Positions 1,872-8,419 of a stretch of 38,669 nucleotides of DNA are shown in pieces. Positions within the stretch are counted from its first letter, which is position 1. Each line of letters opens with the position of its first letter. Under the pieces are notes generated by a model that was not told the origin of the DNA, searched no databases, and saw nothing but the letters and a program-made list of their open reading frames with translations. The position numbers and the translations under genes are program-made. The DNA is from Candidatus Taylorbacteria bacterium RIFCSPLOWO2_01_FULL_45_34b (GTDB taxonomy: Bacteria > Patescibacteriota > Minisyncoccia > Phycocordibacterales > DSPV01), in the NCBI GenBank assembly GCA_001822675.1, contig MHRY01000013.1, forward strand, positions 2,024 to 40,692, written 5' to 3'.

Positions 1872-4800
1872 CTATTTTTTAATATCAAGGATAAAAGACA
1901 TGTCATCAATCTCGACTGTCTCACCGAACGTCTCCGCAAAACGCACACCCTTAAGAAGAGTGTTTTTGATGATTTCGGATTTGTTTTTTTCAAGAAAATC
2001 CCTGCCTGCCGGAGATGTTTGGATCGTGAGCGTGGCAAAATCCGAAATGGTAAGACCACTATTTTTACGAAGTTCTTGAACACCGCGAATAAATTCTCTG
2101 ACTTTCCCCTCTTCTTTTAATTCCGCTGTCAACTCGAAATCGAGCTCTACCTCTTCTTCTTGATCTTCAGCAAAAATAACCTCTTTAACATTGATCTCAT
2201 CGGCAATCAAATCCAAAATCTGCTTGTCTGAAACTTTTAACTTTTTACTTTTCACTTTCAACTTCTTAAGAGGTTGCCTCACTTTAATTCCCGCTTTGGC
2301 TCGAAGTTCCAAAGCAATGGAAACAATCCTTCGCACTTCGGCCATGTTCTCGATGATTCCTGAATCCTGATTCCTGATTCTTGATTCTACTTTTGGCCAC
2401 GACTCAAGATGGACGCTCTCGGGGTCGGAGCCTCCGCGAAGTTTCTGATACATTTCTTCGGCAAAAAACGGAGTGAGCGGCGCCATAATTTTGGAAAGTT
2501 CGAGAAGCACAAAGTGGAGCGTTTGGAGCGCCTGCTCCCTATCCCCAGTTTTTTCTCCATTCTTGAATCCTGCCCGCCCGAACGACTGATATTGTTCAGT
2601 CGGGCGGGAATCCAAATTCCTGAATCCACCCTTAAATCTCTCTCTTGAACGGCGAAGATACCACGTCGAAAGGTCATCAATAAAATCGGCAACCGGTCTT
2701 GCGGCTCGATCAAGTTCGTAAGCTTCCAGATTAACTGTCACCTCTCTACCAAGTTGAGAGAGCCGCGCCAAGATCCAGCGATCTAAAACATTCGCATTTG
2801 GTGATTGTTTATTGGTATTTGATGATTGCTTTTTTTCTGCATAAAGCAGAAAAAAGGCTAAAACATTATCAAGTCGCTGAATAACTTTTTTCAGAATCTC
2901 GCCAACCTCTTTCTCACTAAAACAAAAATCTTGAGCGCGTGAAGCGGGTGATGCCAAAAGATAATAACGCATAGCGTCAGCACCGTATCGTTCTACCACC
3001 TCCATCGGGTCAGGGTAATTTTTAAGATGTTTTGACATCTTCTGGCCATCCTCGGCAAGCACCGTACCATTCACCACCACATGCTCATACGCGGCTCTAT
3101 CGAAAAGTCCGACAGAAAGAACGAGCGTGGAATAAAACCAGCCGCGCGTTTGGTCTAATCCTTCCGCGATAAAATCCGCCGGATAACCTTTTGGTTTTTT
3201 GAAAAATCCGCCTCTCGGATCAAACGTATCCTTATTTTCGAACGGGTAATGAACTCCCGCGTACGGCATCGATCCGGATTCAAACCAGCAATCAAACACC
3301 TCGGGAACCCGCCGCATAATACCGCCACAAGAACAAACAAAAACCACACTATCAATGTACGGACGGTGGAGGTCGAGCGCGTAATGTTCGTTATGGGGAA
3401 GCGGCACAAACGGTATTTCTTTGACTTCAGCGTTTTTGATAAAGAAGTCAGTTGTTCCTCGGGCTGTAACCGCACGGTCGAGATCGTGTCCCCCCGCGAC
3501 AGACTCAAGAAGCCACGCCGGAGAATCATGTGTTACCATTAAAATGTTTTTTCCTTCGTATCGCTTGTCGATATTATATATAAACTCACCGACTCTCTTT
3601 GCGATATCAACATAATGCTCGCCGCCCGGGCACGTTCGCTTGAATTGCTCCTCACCGCTCCGGCAATTCAAATGGTATTCGCCGATGGGGCGACCATTAA
3701 AGAGATCGGCCTTAATTTCTCTAAGACGTTCGTCGTATATAATTTTCTCTTTTGGAAACCCGATATGATCCGCGACAATTTCCGCTGTTTCTTTAGTCCG
3801 AAGAAAAGGCGAAGAAATAATAAGGTCAATCTTTTTCCCGAGAAGCGTCTTCACAGCCGCTTTAACCTGCTCTTTGCCTTTTTCCGTCAAATGATGGGGG
3901 TTGTTGGGGTAAGAACTGACCACGCCGAGCACATTGTTCTCCGCCTCGCCGTGACGCATCAGAAGATAATTGTTTCGAGGCTTCGCACTGTCTTTCAGAT
4001 CTTCAATTGAACCGACAAACTTCATCTTTTCACACTGCTCGCATTTCCAAACCGGAATAGGCGCGCCGAAGTACCGTGAGCGTGAAATCGCCCAATCTCG
4101 AATGCCGGAAAGCCAATCACCGAAACGATTCTCTCCCACTTCCCTCGGCACCCACCTGATTTTATTATTTTCCGCGATGAGCTTTTCTTTGAGAGCCGTT
4201 GTTTTGACAAACCACGACGACGAGGCGAAGTTGAGAAGCGGCGTTTCGCAGCGCCAGCAGTGTGGGTAGGAATGCGTGATTTTTTCCTTGGCAAAAAGCA
4301 AACCGCGATTGGCGATATTTTTGAGAATTTCAATATCCGCCCGAGAAGGATCGTCTTTCGGTTTTACGTCGATACCAGCGAAATCTTTGATCTCCGGAAC
4401 AAATTTGCCGTCAGTCGAGACATGCCGGATAAGCGGCAGACCTTCGAGCTCCGCCAAAGCAAGATCATCTTCACCGAAAGCTGGCGCGATATGAACAACA
4501 CCGGTGCCTTTTTCCAAGGTCACAAACGGCGCGACATACACCTTCCACGCTTTTTCGATGCCCTTGATGCGTGCATCTTTGTAATAATTAAAAACCGGTT
4601 TATAAGAAAGGTCAACAAGCTCGCTTCCTTTATATTCCTCGACAATCGTGTACTCCTCTTTTATAAGAGAAAGTTTTTCCTTGGCCAAAATATAGCGACT
4701 CTGCCCCACTGCCACTTTGACGTAGACAATGTCGGGGTGGACCGCGAGCGCCACGTTCCCCGGCAGCGTCCACGGCGTCGTCGTCCAAACCAAAAAACAA

Positions 4801-5459
4801 GTGCCCGGCTCACGGGTCAGTTCAAATTTCACATACACCGAAATGTCGGTAACGTCTTTGTAACCCTGACTGACTTCAAAATTAGAAAGGGTGGTGCCGC
4901 ATCGAGGACAGAGATGCATTGATTTGAATCCTTCGTAAATCAGACCTTTTTTATGGAGTTCTTTGAAAGCAAACCAGACGCTCTCGGTGTATCTCGCGTC
5001 CATGGTCTTGTAGTCATCATCCATATCAACCCATCGTCCGGTACGCGGAATAATTTCTCTCCACTCTTCGGCGTAGCGAAGCACTGCCTCTCTGGCCACA
5101 CGGTTGAATTTTTCAATACCGAGCGTTTCGATATCGCGCTTGGTTTTAAGCCCCAGTTCTTTTTCAACGAGATTTTCAACTGGCAATCCGTGACAATCCC
5201 AACCCCATCGTCGACGAACATGATACCCTTGCATGGTTTTGAACCGCGGGATGACATCTTTAATCGTGCCTGCCAAAATGTGCCCATAGTGAGGCAGGCC
5301 AGTCGCAAACGGCGGGCCATCATAAAAGACAAACTCGCCTTTTGGCGCTGGCTTTTCAAGCGACTTCTCAAAAATCTGTTTGCGTTTCCAAAAAGCGAGA
5401 ACAGCCTCCTCTCGTTCGGCAACCTTTAACTTTTGTGGGTTTTGTTCCTGCTCTGGCAT
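1872..5459 (-). CDS. ileS: Isoleucyl-tRNA synthetase with embedded histidine-phosphatase domain
   Basis: This enzyme charges tRNA-Ile with isoleucine and edits misactivated valine. The 1195-residue protein has the class I HIGH motif as HYGH (57-60), GWDCHGLPVE (86-95), the CP1 editing domain (about 180-400), DWAISRSRYFGAPIPVW (455-471) and KMSKH (807-811). The ISRSRYFG form and overall layout resemble the eukaryote-like IleRS type. A complete histidine phosphatase fills residues about 494-690, between the CEQC zinc pair and LHRPYIDSVVFVCSCGG, where ordinary IleRS proteins run straight on. Three intergenic-type repeats also lie in frame in the C-terminal half (near residues 944-967, 1027-1037 and 1064-1078). 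Start ATG 5459; no strong Shine-Dalgarno sequence. It is followed by recO. Confidence 0.97.
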   Translation of the reverse strand: MPEQEQNPQKLKVAEREEAVLAFWKRKQIFEKSLEKPAPKGEFVFYDGPPFATGLPHYGHILAGTIKDVIPRFKTMQGYHVRRRWGWDCHGLPVENLVEKELGLKTKRDIETLGIEKFNRVAREAVLRYAEEWREIIPRTGRWVDMDDDYKTMDARYTESVWFAFKELHKKGLIYEGFKSMHLCPRCGTTLSNFEVSQGYKDVTDISVYVKFELTREPGTCFLVWTTTPWTLPGNVALAVHPDIVYVKVAVGQSRYILAKEKLSLIKEEYTIVEEYKGSELVDLSYKPVFNYYKDARIKGIEKAWKVYVAPFVTLEKGTGVVHIAPAFGEDDLALAELEGLPLIRHVSTDGKFVPEIKDFAGIDVKPKDDPSRADIEILKNIANRGLLFAKEKITHSYPHCWRCETPLLNFASSSWFVKTTALKEKLIAENNKIRWVPREVGENRFGDWLSGIRDWAISRSRYFGAPIPVWKCEQCEKMKFVGSIEDLKDSAKPRNNYLLMRHGEAENNVLGVVSSYPNNPHHLTEKGKEQVKAAVKTLLGKKIDLIISSPFLRTKETAEIVADHIGFPKEKIIYDERLREIKADLFNGRPIGEYHLNCRSGEEQFKRTCPGGEHYVDIAKRVGEFIYNIDKRYEGKNILMVTHDSPAWLLESVAGGHDLDRAVTARGTTDFFIKNAEVKEIPFVPLPHNEHYALDLHRPYIDSVVFVCSCGGIMRRVPEVFDCWFESGSMPYAGVHYPFENKDTFDPRGGFFKKPKGYPADFIAEGLDQTRGWFYSTLVLSVGLFDRAAYEHVVVNGTVLAEDGQKMSKHLKNYPDPMEVVERYGADAMRYYLLASPASRAQDFCFSEKEVGEILKKVIQRLDNVLAFFLLYAEKKQSSNTNKQSPNANVLDRWILARLSQLGREVTVNLEAYELDRAARPVADFIDDLSTWYLRRSRERFKGGFRNLDSRPTEQYQSFGRAGFKNGEKTGDREQALQTLHFVLLELSKIMAPLTPFFAEEMYQKLRGGSDPESVHLESWPKVESRIRNQDSGIIENMAEVRRIVSIALELRAKAGIKVRQPLKKLKVKSKKLKVSDKQILDLIADEINVKEVIFAEDQEEEVELDFELTAELKEEGKVREFIRGVQELRKNSGLTISDFATLTIQTSPAGRDFLEKNKSEIIKNTLLKGVRFAETFGETVEIDDMSFILDIKK
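2231..2266. repeat. AAAGT-type short repeat cluster inside ileS
   Basis: Degenerate repeats of aactttt and actttca encode the lysine-rich KKLKVKSKKLKV stretch near residue 1070 of IleRS. A similar AAAGT-rich run lies between thyA and folA (15443-15472), which supports a dispersed simple repeat. Confidence 0.55.
2355..2387. repeat. GAATC/GATTC short repeat cluster inside ileS
   Basis: Five to six near-copies of a 7-nt unit (gattcct, gaatcct, gattctt) run in tandem and encode RIRNQDSGII near residue 1030 of IleRS. The composition is that of intergenic simple repeats, not of conserved synthetase sequence. Confidence 0.65.
2573..2608. repeat. REP-like 36-bp hairpin inside ileS
   Basis: An inverted repeat with GC-rich arms CCCGCCCGAACGACTGA and TCAGTCGGGCGGG lies in frame in ileS and is flanked by GAATC-type repeats (2557-2632). 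Apart from one base it is identical to the reverse complement of the intergenic element at 19254-19289. It encodes residues around 952-964 of IleRS, a stretch absent from ordinary IleRS. Confidence 0.85.
3390..3980 (-). other. Histidine-phosphatase (phosphoglycerate-mutase-like) domain inside IleRS
   Basis: Residues about 494-690 of IleRS hold every signature of the histidine phosphatase superfamily. They are LLMRHGEAENN with the phospho-accepting His503 and Arg502, SSPFLRTKETAE with Arg554, RLREIKADLFNGRP with probable acid Glu581, and MVTHDSP with His644. The active site therefore appears intact. The flanking residues match ordinary IleRS on both sides, so this is an in-frame domain insertion rather than a frameshifted neighbour. 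The substrate cannot be read from sequence. Confidence 0.9.
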
Positions 5460-5461
5460 AT

Positions 5462-5756
5462 ACCCGATAAACTTTTTAGCTATTAAAAAAGTTGCATAAT
5501 ACTTTCTTTATATAATTTCGACCCCATTGCGTTTTTAAATACTTTTCGCGTTGAAACGCGTCTTTTTGATTTAAAAATGCTTCGTAATAAATCAACCGTA
5601 AAGGCACTCTTCTAGCGGTGGAAGCAACTTTTTTTGCATTATGCAGTTGCAATCTTTTCCGCAAATCGCTCGTACAACCGGTATATAAGTTATGATCAGC
5701 CCTGCTCTGTAAAACATACACATACTGCATAATGGTAGCTAAAAAGTTTCGCGGGT
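5462..5756. mobile_element. Putative small element: GIY-YIG ORF between 21-bp inverted repeats
   Basis: The 21-bp segments 5462-5482 and 5736-5756 are inverted copies of each other with 19 of 21 matches; the mismatches are at positions 6-7. They share ACCCG followed by AAACTTTTTAGCTA. They bracket the GIY-YIG ORF, and the right end directly abuts the DGR-flanking repeat at 5757. No target-site duplication is obvious. Mobility is inferred from the arrangement only. Confidence 0.5.
5476..5730 (-). CDS. GIY-YIG nuclease family protein
   Basis: The 84-residue protein is a stand-alone GIY-YIG domain. YVYVLQSRADHNLYTGCTSDL carries the paired YV-L and YTG elements of the fold. RKRLQLHN gives the conserved Arg and His, LRLIYYEAF the tyrosine strand, and AFQREKYLKTQWGR the helix with the catalytic Glu. 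Single-domain proteins of this kind (UPF0213/YhbQ-like) are plentiful in CPR genomes; their substrate is not established and some relatives are mobile nucleases. ATG 5730 is the only good start, without an evident Shine-Dalgarno sequence. It lies 16 bp upstream of ileS on the same strand and between the inverted repeats described for 5462-5756. Confidence 0.9.
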   Translation of the reverse strand: MQYVYVLQSRADHNLYTGCTSDLRKRLQLHNAKKVASTARRVPLRLIYYEAFLNQKDAFQREKYLKTQWGRNYIKKVLCNFFNS

Positions 5757-5789
5757 AAAAAAGCGCTAGAATATGATGATTCTAGCACT
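5757..5789 (-). terminator. Terminator of the reverse transcriptase gene, copy 1 of a 33-bp direct repeat
   Basis: On the minus strand GCTAGAAT, a 6-nt loop and ATTCTAGC are followed by GC and six T, a canonical intrinsic terminator that overlaps the rt stop codon. The whole 33 bp recurs identically at 8420-8452 in the same orientation. Confidence 0.8.
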
Positions 5790-6774
5790 ATTTCAGGAAT
5801 TTTGAAATTTTATTTTGCAAACCATATGCATTACCATGCTTCAATAATCCAATATATGAAATGATACTTTGAGGTGTTGGATTCTCGTTAATTCGCTTTA
5901 TCATTCTTCTTTTTGTACTTGTCCTCAAAACTCGATGTTTTGGAAAATTCACCCAGCCTAAAAAATCAACTCCAGAAGCAACTGTTTGTATGAAAACTTT
6001 GTCAGGGTGTAATTCTAGTTTTAACTTCTCATGTAGATATCTTACGATATATCGTAAGACAACTTTCAACTCTTTTTTATCTCCAGATAAAATCACAAAA
6101 TCATCAGCATACCGAATGTAGTATTTAATTTTTAAATTATGTTTAACATATTGATCAAATTCGTTCATGTAAATATTGACTAAAAGCTGGGAGGTCAGGT
6201 TACCGAGTGGTAATCCTATTCCCTTATTTGTGGAGCAAAAACTTTCTACTATATTCTGGATAAGCCACAAAATATCTTTGTTTGGTATGTATTTGTCGAG
6301 AATTTGATAAAGCAAAAAATGGTCAATGTTCGCAAAGAATTTTTTTATATCACACTTAAGCACCCACACTGTTTTTGTATTATTTTTACTAACACGAAAA
6401 AAATATCTTCTGAATGTTTCCACTGCTTTATGTGTGCCCTTCTGAAGTCGGCACGAGTACGAATCAGTCGCAAATACTCTGTCAAAAAACGGGTACAACT
6501 TTCTATACAAGGCACGATGAAGCAGTCTGTCCCTCACACTTGCCTTGTGAATATCACGGGGTTTCGGGTCAGAAATTTTGAAATGCTTATACGGTTCATG
6601 CTGATATGTCTTATCTTTAAGCTCTTGATGCAAAGAGAAAATATTGTCCATAAGCCGTAATTGAAATTCCTGTACATCCTTTTTTTTCCGCTTCCCTTTT
6701 ATAAACTCTTGCCATGCACCAAGTAAATTCTCGATAGAAATGATATCGTTATATGTATGAGCGAATTGAATCAT
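5788..6774 (-). CDS. DGR-type reverse transcriptase
   Basis: This error-prone reverse transcriptase copies a template RNA with random substitution at adenines and supports replacement of the variable repeat of a target gene. The 328-residue protein has the palm motifs in order: VLKCDIKKFFANID with catalytic Asp142, GIGLPLGNLTSQLLVNIYMNEFD (185-207), and YYIRYADDFVIL with Asp224/Asp225. FLGWVNFPK follows near 272. The GNLTSQ and NE-LDQ-type wording and short length are those of DGR reverse transcriptases rather than group II introns; there is no maturase or endonuclease domain. The start is ATG 6774 with AGGAG 4 nt upstream on the minus strand. A G10 tract lies just beyond that ribosome-binding site. 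Template repeat and target lie upstream in the same orientation. Confidence 0.95.
   Translation of the reverse strand: MIQFAHTYNDIISIENLLGAWQEFIKGKRKKKDVQEFQLRLMDNIFSLHQELKDKTYQHEPYKHFKISDPKPRDIHKASVRDRLLHRALYRKLYPFFDRVFATDSYSCRLQKGTHKAVETFRRYFFRVSKNNTKTVWVLKCDIKKFFANIDHFLLYQILDKYIPNKDILWLIQNIVESFCSTNKGIGLPLGNLTSQLLVNIYMNEFDQYVKHNLKIKYYIRYADDFVILSGDKKELKVVLRYIVRYLHEKLKLELHPDKVFIQTVASGVDFLGWVNFPKHRVLRTSTKRRMIKRINENPTPQSIISYIGLLKHGNAYGLQNKISKFLK
6040..6059. repeat. Perfect palindrome within the rt gene
   Basis: TCTTACGATATATCGTAAGA is a perfect 20-bp palindrome encoding part of LRYIVRYL in the reverse transcriptase. The same 20 bp form the core of the 32-bp intergenic palindrome at 26949-26980. 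Confidence 0.7.
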
Positions 6775-7189
6775 TCTCCTAACGATACCCCCCCCCCGAG
6801 CACTTTTTCAACAGAAACTCGTTCCCGTTATTCTTAAACTTAAAGACGCCTATGGTTTGTGGCAAAAGTATCTGGCACATTTTCCCAAAGCTAATCGTTT
6901 TACTCTTGGATCAAAAATAGACGAGGTATTTCTTGCGACCATTGAATATTGCTTCCTTGCAAGTTACGCAAACGTACAGGAAAAAATGCCCCTGCTTAAT
7001 CGTTGTATTTCAAGAGTTGACCTTCTTAAGTTATTGCTTCTCCTTGCATGGGAAATCAAAGCGCTTGATACAAAAAAATATATTCATCTCTCCGAACACA
7101 TGGTAGAAGTAGGTAGAATGCTTGGAGGCTGGAGACGTCAACTCGTAAACAAAACTCCCCTACCTAAAAAGGAAGGGGAGAAATCGTGA
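6757..7189 (+). CDS. avd: DGR accessory protein Avd, reading frame broken at a C10 tract
   Basis: Avd forms a five-subunit four-helix-bundle barrel that binds the DGR reverse transcriptase and template RNA. The frame 6770-7189 encodes LFQQKLVPVILKLKDAYGLW, HFPKANRFTLGSKIDEVFL, LLNRCISRVDLLKLLLLLAW and the family-typical ending MVEVGRMLGGWRRQL. It has no ATG, GTG or TTG before TTG 6857, which would delete the first helix. The upstream ATG 6757 reads MSELNHSPNDTPPP and joins this frame only if the C10 tract at 6788-6797 loses one C (or gains two). The gene is therefore either switched off by slippage, read by frameshifting, or affected by an assembly error. It runs opposite to rt, TR and target, and its presumed start overlaps the 5' end of rt by 18 bp. 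Confidence 0.85.
6788..6797. repeat. C10 homopolymer tract at the rt/avd junction
   Basis: Ten consecutive C lie inside the 5' part of avd (plus strand) and upstream of the rt ribosome-binding site (minus strand). Nine or twelve C would restore a single avd frame from ATG 6757. Such tracts are classic sites of slipped-strand phase variation. Confidence 0.85.
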
Positions 7190-7194
7190 TAGTG

Positions 7195-7320
7195 GCGCAC
7201 CGCGAGGAACCGGTAGTTGCCATTCCAGTCATTGTCAAACCAATTGAGGTTGAGCTTGCGCTTCGAGTCATACTTGTCGAGGTAGAGGACGTTGCGATTA
7301 CCGTTGACCTTCGCGACGGA
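7195..7320 (-). repeat. DGR template repeat (TR)
   Basis: This 126-bp segment matches 7654-7779 base for base except at 21 positions, each of which is A in the TR when read on the minus strand. TR has 31 adenines on that strand; no non-adenine position differs. Read in the target frame, TR carries AAY codons where the target has Arg, His, Asp, Tyr or Gly. It begins 5 bp after the avd stop and lies between the target gene and rt in the same orientation as both. Confidence 0.97.
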
Positions 7321-7647: not shown

Positions 7648-8283
7648 CTATTTGCGCACCGCGAGGAACCGGCAGTAGCCACCCCAGCCACAGTCAAACC
7701 AATGGAGGTAGAGCCGGCGCCCCGAGCCACACTCGTCGAGGTAGAGGACGTAGCGATCACCGTGGACCCGCGCGACGGAACCAAGTTCTACAATTGGAAA
7801 CTCTCTCTGCACTTGGGGATTGTGTTCCCCGAAAGCCAGAAGTTCTTCAGTCGCCGCCGGTCGGTAGCCTTCTTTATCCATTTCTTTGATGGCGTCTTCT
7901 GACGAAATGTACCGCCCGAAATGAAACAGGGCGGATTCCACCTGACGGCTTCCTATACCTTTTATCGGAAATCGCTCTTCAGTGATCTCGGAATTCGTCC
8001 AGTCGTACTTGCCCGCCCCAATCATCTCCGGAAGAGGGCGACAATTGACAGCGAACGTGTATGGAGTGATTGTAGGTTTCAGAATGGGCGGGGTAATTAG
8101 AGGAAGACCAAGAAGTGCACGAATGCCATCGCGTTTCGTTGTATCAAGACTTCCGGCCTTGGCGGCTTCGAAAACGTCGGTGATAATGCCGGAGCAAATC
8201 GCCGTCTGCAGTTCCTTGTCCGTAAGCTCTTTTTGTTGAGCAAGCTCGAGCAATTTGCCTGCCTGTTTGAGGGTTGCGTTCAT
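7648..8283 (-). CDS. DGR target protein with C-terminal variable repeat (C-type-lectin-like fold inferred)
   Basis: The 211-residue protein is the diversified product of the DGR. An N-terminal helical part (LKQAGKLLELAQQKELTDKELQTAICSGIITDVFEAAK) is followed by a linker and a C-terminal domain. That domain opens with YRPAATEELLAFGEHNP and ends in the variable segment, where WFD, W and RFLAVRK are invariant. This ending is usual for DGR targets with a formylglycine-enzyme/C-type-lectin-like fold, in which diversified residues line a binding face. ATG 8283 is preferred because GAAAGG lies 6 nt upstream; the frame opens earlier (ATG 8367) but without a ribosome-binding site. No signal peptide is evident. 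The ligand is unknown. Confidence 0.9.
   Translation of the reverse strand: MNATLKQAGKLLELAQQKELTDKELQTAICSGIITDVFEAAKAGSLDTTKRDGIRALLGLPLITPPILKPTITPYTFAVNCRPLPEMIGAGKYDWTNSEITEERFPIKGIGSRQVESALFHFGRYISSEDAIKEMDKEGYRPAATEELLAFGEHNPQVQREFPIVELGSVARVHGDRYVLYLDECGSGRRLYLHWFDCGWGGYCRFLAVRK
7654..7779 (-). repeat. DGR variable repeat (VR)
   Basis: These are the last coding bases of the target gene, 126 bp aligned without gaps to TR 7195-7320. Substitutions fall at 21 of the 31 TR adenines and nowhere else. The invariant GC-rich end CCGGTTCCTCGCGGTGCGC next to the stop codon is the likely IMH (initiation of mutagenic homology) site. Confidence 0.97.
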
Positions 8284-8419
8284 CGCAAGCCTTTCTGTGT
8301 TTTGCAGTCCGTGTTTAGCGGGTGCGTTGATTATCAAAACCAGCGTCATGCCGATTTCTACTGACAAAATACTAGCATAAGTAGGCTATATTTGTCAATA
8401 GCCGTTGCAGAAACGTATT

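Follow-up and report, generated by a model that had tools for sequence, protein, structure and literature searches.

A short repeat between avd and rt as a very probable contingency locus of diversity-generating retroelements in Patescibacteria

How can a diversity-generating retroelement (DGR) make its accessory protein Avd when the start codon upstream of the avd core is out of frame with it? This question is raised by a tract of ten C residues in the window, by which we mean the whole stretch of 38,669 nucleotides analysed here, taken from a Patescibacteria-type genome of 778 kb in 50 contigs (Candidatus Taylorbacteria bacterium RIFCSPLOWO2_01_FULL_45_34b). The tract (6788–6797, pure C on the + strand and G10 on the rt strand) is a slippery repeat that sits between two divergent genes, the DGR reverse transcriptase gene rt (5788–6774, − strand; PF00078, RVT_1, E 8e-25), whose relatives are 59–68% identical, and the core reading frame of avd (6797–7189, + strand, 130 amino acids). 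Beyond avd lie a template repeat (TR, 7202–7319, − strand) and a variable repeat (VR, 7661–7778, − strand), the latter at the end of the DGR target gene (7648–8367, − strand, 239 amino acids), which has no Pfam or NCBIfam match. Comparison of TR and VR over 118 nt gave 21 differences, all 21 of them at TR adenines, which is the signature of a DGR; the reverse transcriptase gene thus stands beside a TR/VR pair with changes at template adenines, and the divergent VR suggests that mutagenic retrohoming has occurred in the past. On the far side of rt are a small GIY-YIG nuclease gene (5476–5730, − strand; PF01541) and then an isoleucyl-tRNA synthetase-like gene (1872–5459, − strand; PF00133), which contains a whole inserted histidine phosphatase domain at residues 499–661 (PF00300, E 3e-29).

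The product of the avd frame was assigned by profiles and structure together. It matched NF033474 (E 4e-18, below the curated cut-off) and PF22296 (E 2e-12, above the cut-off), and Foldseek with its AlphaFold model (AF2, pLDDT 89) matched Avd of the BPP-1 DGR (4DWL) and a DGR ribonucleoprotein (8UB7), although PDB sequences searched by profile yielded no match. Avd homology extends 5′ of TTG 6857, as the original prediction stated: the alignment to the NCBIfam profile began with profile position 2 at base 6824 of the window, and the avd frame is open upstream as far as ATC 6770, with a stop codon, TGA, at 6767. At C10, no ATG, GTG or TTG is found in this open frame 5′ of TTG 6857. TTG 6857 itself was ruled out as the true start by the Avd profile and the structure model, in which it is residue 21, in the middle of helix 1 (residues 10–26, 6824–6874), so that starting there would delete most of this helix. 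The upstream candidate, ATG 6757, opens an upstream start region (6757–6837, + strand) that overlaps the 5′ end of rt in antisense; at C10 it is out of the avd frame and encodes only MSELNHSPNDTPPPSTFSTETRSRYS before a stop after 26 codons. Because there is no start before TTG 6857, ATG 6757 is out of frame and the TTG lies inside helix 1, the assembled C10 sequence should not yield a whole Avd. Removal of one C would join ATG 6757 to the core, as had been proposed; the peptide given with that proposal was misspelled, and the correct N-terminus at C9 is MSELNHSPNDTPPRALFQQ, with two prolines, three prolines requiring C12. The residues directly N-terminal of helix 1 were modelled with low confidence, and this stretch is the place that would tolerate added prolines.

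Runs of this kind are rare in the surrounding DNA. The window has only two C/G runs of at least 7 nt, and the 778-kb genome only four of at least 9 nt, two of which are at avd/rt junctions, since the same genome carries a second, diverged DGR (L133, G000 contig 42) whose C9 (3689–3697) occupies the avd/rt junction in the same divergent order. The Avd proteins of the two elements are 21% identical, and the upstream ATG of the second (3669) is also out of frame. This second DGR spans 2671–8076 of contig 42 and includes a pair of target-like genes. No ATG, GTG or TTG occurs in its rt from the tract to the conserved core; the reading frame of rt runs open across the G tract, beginning at a TTG. 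The remaining two runs, both of 9 nt, are intergenic (G000:C18:8436–8444, L003, and G000:C32:2686–2694, L004); one is presumably 5′ of a secA-like gene and the other beside a T9 run near what we take to be an efp-like gene, both names being read from translations.

We then turned to relatives. Loci were collected by searching 197 relative genomes for Avd, by a reverse transcriptase scan of genome and viral contigs, and by an Avd family search across 379 genomes of the phylum. After placement by HMM and removal of duplicates these gave 237 divergent avd/rt loci, found with query sequences of this clade and thus not a census of all DGRs, among which related loci are not independent, a kinship that the rt tree and the changes of repeat type described below address in part. 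A simple repeat was found just 5′ of the Avd core in 171 of the 237 divergent loci. In 146 of these 171 it is poly-C of 7–14 nt, always with C on the avd strand; in 21 the unit is of 2 nt (CT/TC, CA or GA), in three it is a tetranucleotide (AACC, ACGA or GTCA) and in one a pentanucleotide (AGGAC). Units of 3, 6 or 9 nt were found at none of the 171 loci when unit lengths of 1–9 were searched. In DGRs with avd and rt on the same strand no repeat was seen (0/59; 9 from the first locus set and 50 from viral contigs; Fisher p 3e-27 versus divergent loci). A chance origin of the tracts was excluded by background counts: the junctions of the first locus set contained 94 C/G runs of at least 8 nt against about 0.04 expected, and 724 kb of DNA flanking these loci contained two. 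Two IMG/VR viral contigs (L288 and L289) also carried divergent avd/rt DGRs, with C8 and (GA)19.5 at the junction; either the switch is carried by phages or the contigs come from hosts. A viral scan with a single Avd query gave no match.

The start codon upstream of the repeat is retained almost throughout. An upstream ATG is open to the repeat at 170 of the 171 repeat loci, usually in exactly one phase, and an ATG stands in frame at 64 of the 66 divergent loci that lack a repeat. An ATG open to the repeat within 60 nt was found in 97% of the repeat loci, compared with 42% of shuffles and 60–65% of windows shifted into rt. At numerous loci this ATG and the 5′ end of rt overlap in antisense; at some (L008, L039, L046, L051 and L070) the codon is located outside rt. 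A start codon 3′ of the tract was considered and rejected: just 7 of the 130 off-state loci have a downstream ATG, and the leucine codons of the conserved LPV motif are varied.

Frame calls, made from consensus assemblies in which short reads may miscount homopolymers by one, placed 41 of 170 repeat loci, those open in more than one phase included, in frame (on) and 129 out of frame (off). At the 151 loci with a single open phase, phases 0, 1 and 2 were represented by 30, 58 and 63 loci, an in-frame share significantly below one third (p 0.0004), and this deficit points to off as the more frequent state. An on fraction of 20–24%, against 33% for a free switch, means either that off is favoured or that another step rescues Avd. 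Tract length varied among relatives, where the original prediction had looked for it, from 7 to 14, with on and off states both occurring among species-level relatives and among paralogues; within one genome paralogous DGRs differ (C8 off and C9 on in G002, C10 off and C8 on in G161). Homopolymers are error-prone and one base less restores the frame in the window, so the true tract could be C9 and avd simply in frame; this we regard as extremely unlikely, since tracts stand at the same site at more than 140 loci in many independent assemblies, including the complete chromosome CP011209 (C14), and are replaced elsewhere by 2-, 4- and 5-nt repeats. One-base miscounts would scramble the frame calls, not the existence of the repeats nor the 2-, 4- and 5-nt units, and a wrong length at the window locus alone would leave the finding unchanged.

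Repeat type has turned over repeatedly. On an rt tree of 210 loci it changed at least 23 times and repeat presence or absence at least 12 times, with CA, CT, GA and 4-mer repeats nested among poly-C relatives. At L200 a compound CT/C8/CT tract lies 5′ of avd, which may be a transitional form linking one type of repeat to another. That CA, CT, GA, 4-mers and a 5-mer can stand in place of C argues for switching at the DNA level and against roles in RNA slippage, as polyproline or as a quadruplex. At the same time, off-state avd genes retain their coding character: 28 independent pairs together showed 703 substitutions at first, 390 at second and 1460 at third codon positions, indicating from sequence that off-state avd is under purifying selection and not decaying.

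That most loci are out of frame yet avd is conserved, as if frame hardly mattered, could also be read as recoding, in which RNA polymerase or the ribosome slips on the tract and a constant low amount of full-length Avd is made at any length; CCC-C runs are known slippery sites. We consider this unlikely, because AACC, ACGA, GTCA, AGGAC and CA/CT/GA occupy the same place and are not RNA-slippage signals, because the homopolymer is always C and never A or T, and because about one quarter of the loci are in frame. Scarcely credible, in our judgement, is a purely structural element (a G-quadruplex, a DNA signal or a PPP linker) with no switch: pure C runs do encode prolines and G runs can stack, but a polyproline linker would use CCA, CCT and CCG and stay in frame, and the CA, CT, GA and 4–5-nt repeats form no quadruplex and encode not only proline. 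Switching of the Avd frame by DNA slippage is the reading that we retain.

The same tract had been proposed to tune rt from the other strand. Its closeness to the rt start held, the tract beginning 13 nt upstream of the rt ATG, and a weak, hypothetical rt promoter spans it (6782–6811, − strand), with TTGAAA at 6811–6806, an 18-nt spacer containing the tract, and TATCGT at 6787–6782. Of the proposed tuning through promoter spacing, the −10 side found support and the −35 side little: a TATAAT-like hexamer adjoined the tract on the rt strand at 32 of 146 poly-C loci, a raw count over related loci, compared with 7.5 in shuffles, whereas the −35 side was near background, the number of promoter matches in the window equalled that of shuffles, and non-C repeats showed no clear excess of the hexamer. 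Support for tuning of rt is thus only suggestive. That the tract acts mainly on rt as a promoter spacer, the effect on the avd frame being a by-product, would fit the hexamer excess and the putative promoter across the tract, but it leaves unexplained both the absence of multiple-of-three units and the conserved open ATG upstream of avd, and with the weak −35 side we find it very unlikely. The RNA fold around the tract was not unusual (z −0.14).

At 36 repeat loci (for instance L020, L049, L061, L073, L074 and L107), rt has no ATG, GTG or TTG in the interval from the tract to the RT core; at 35 of them its reading frame extends uninterrupted across the tract. Such genes either use rare starts (ATT/ATC) or rt also reads through the repeat. 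Frame control of rt was considered and found no support: of the 28 start-less loci with a single phase, just 2 have their upstream ATG in frame.

The original prediction of a frame switch of Avd by a homopolymer is strongly supported by repeats conserved in position and never of a multiple of three, by upstream starts that are kept, by scattered frame states and by intact Avd in the off state. From comparison of sequences, it is very probable that the tract is a contingency locus at which slipped-strand mispairing turns Avd, and with it mutagenic retrohoming, on and off, and that its usual state is off. In this mechanism the avd start, ATG 6757 in the window, would precede the repeat, which would run into the avd frame via a disordered N-terminal linker, and slipped-strand mispairing would add or remove repeat units. 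A total length aligning the ATG with the Avd core would give full-length Avd, and other lengths a short abortive peptide. Tract length would accordingly vary within populations, and the repeat would stochastically toggle the whole DGR in single cells, being off in most assembled genomes. In the BPP-1 DGR, avd nonsense mutations reduce activity to background (PMC12875486), and since Avd is required for retrohoming there, the switch would gate the whole DGR; off-state cells would lack Avd and diversification would then stop. MutS_V is missing from the window genome and from 28 of 30 relatives and is present in 11 of 14 control genomes; with MutS lost, the repeats would be unstable. A wider reading, to which we give limited credence, is a two-layer hypermutation across much of the phylum, in which a random, reversible repeat switch gates a targeted mutator and poly-C works on both strands, fixing the Avd frame on one and the spacing of the rt promoter on the other.

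The closest known systems are the contingency loci of Campylobacter, Neisseria, Haemophilus and Helicobacter (for poly-G/C in C. jejuni, PMC8355987 and PMC4965091). As in those, a short repeat with units not divisible by three lies near the 5′ end of a reading frame, placed so that a change by one unit alters the frame or promoter spacing, and G/C runs of at least 7 nt and mixed on and off states are common to both. Those loci switch mostly surface structures or DNA methyltransferases, whereas here the accessory protein of a targeted mutator would be switched, and unlike them the repeat is almost ubiquitous within a single DGR lineage of a phylum. Promoter-spacing phase variation, as in meningococcal nadA (PMC2791445) and nspA (PMC6389960), works through a repeat that alters the spacing of elements, as the tract could for rt, although here the rt promoter is putative. 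The BPP-1 DGR (4DWL; 8UB7; PMC12875486) shares the reverse transcriptase, the Avd fold and TR/VR changes only at TR adenines, but its avd, TR and rt are all on one strand, whereas here avd is divergent from rt and a repeat separates the start codon from the core. Roux et al. 2021 (PMC8144416) described a DGR clade 2 of cellular DGRs restricted to Patescibacteria, which is probably the same as the lineage studied here; avd, homopolymers and frameshifts are unmentioned in its main text. That no such DGR switch had been described, as the original prediction held, agrees with the open literature, in which we found no report of a phase-variable DGR; subscription papers lay outside the scope, and novelty is not fully secured.

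How DGRs are restrained from constant mutation is an open question, and their regulation in the wild was called an exciting frontier in 2026 (PMC12875486). The repeat described here offers a candidate answer for a whole lineage, namely that mutation is itself switched by mutation, which would mean that, in reduced genomes without MutS, a contingency locus controls a mutator gene. It predicts that these genomes will frequently show an avd that seems broken or is mis-annotated, and that the on or off state can be read directly from existing metagenomic reads. It would also give an on/off handle for DGRs. Populations of Patescibacteria would then be mixtures of diversifying and silent cells.
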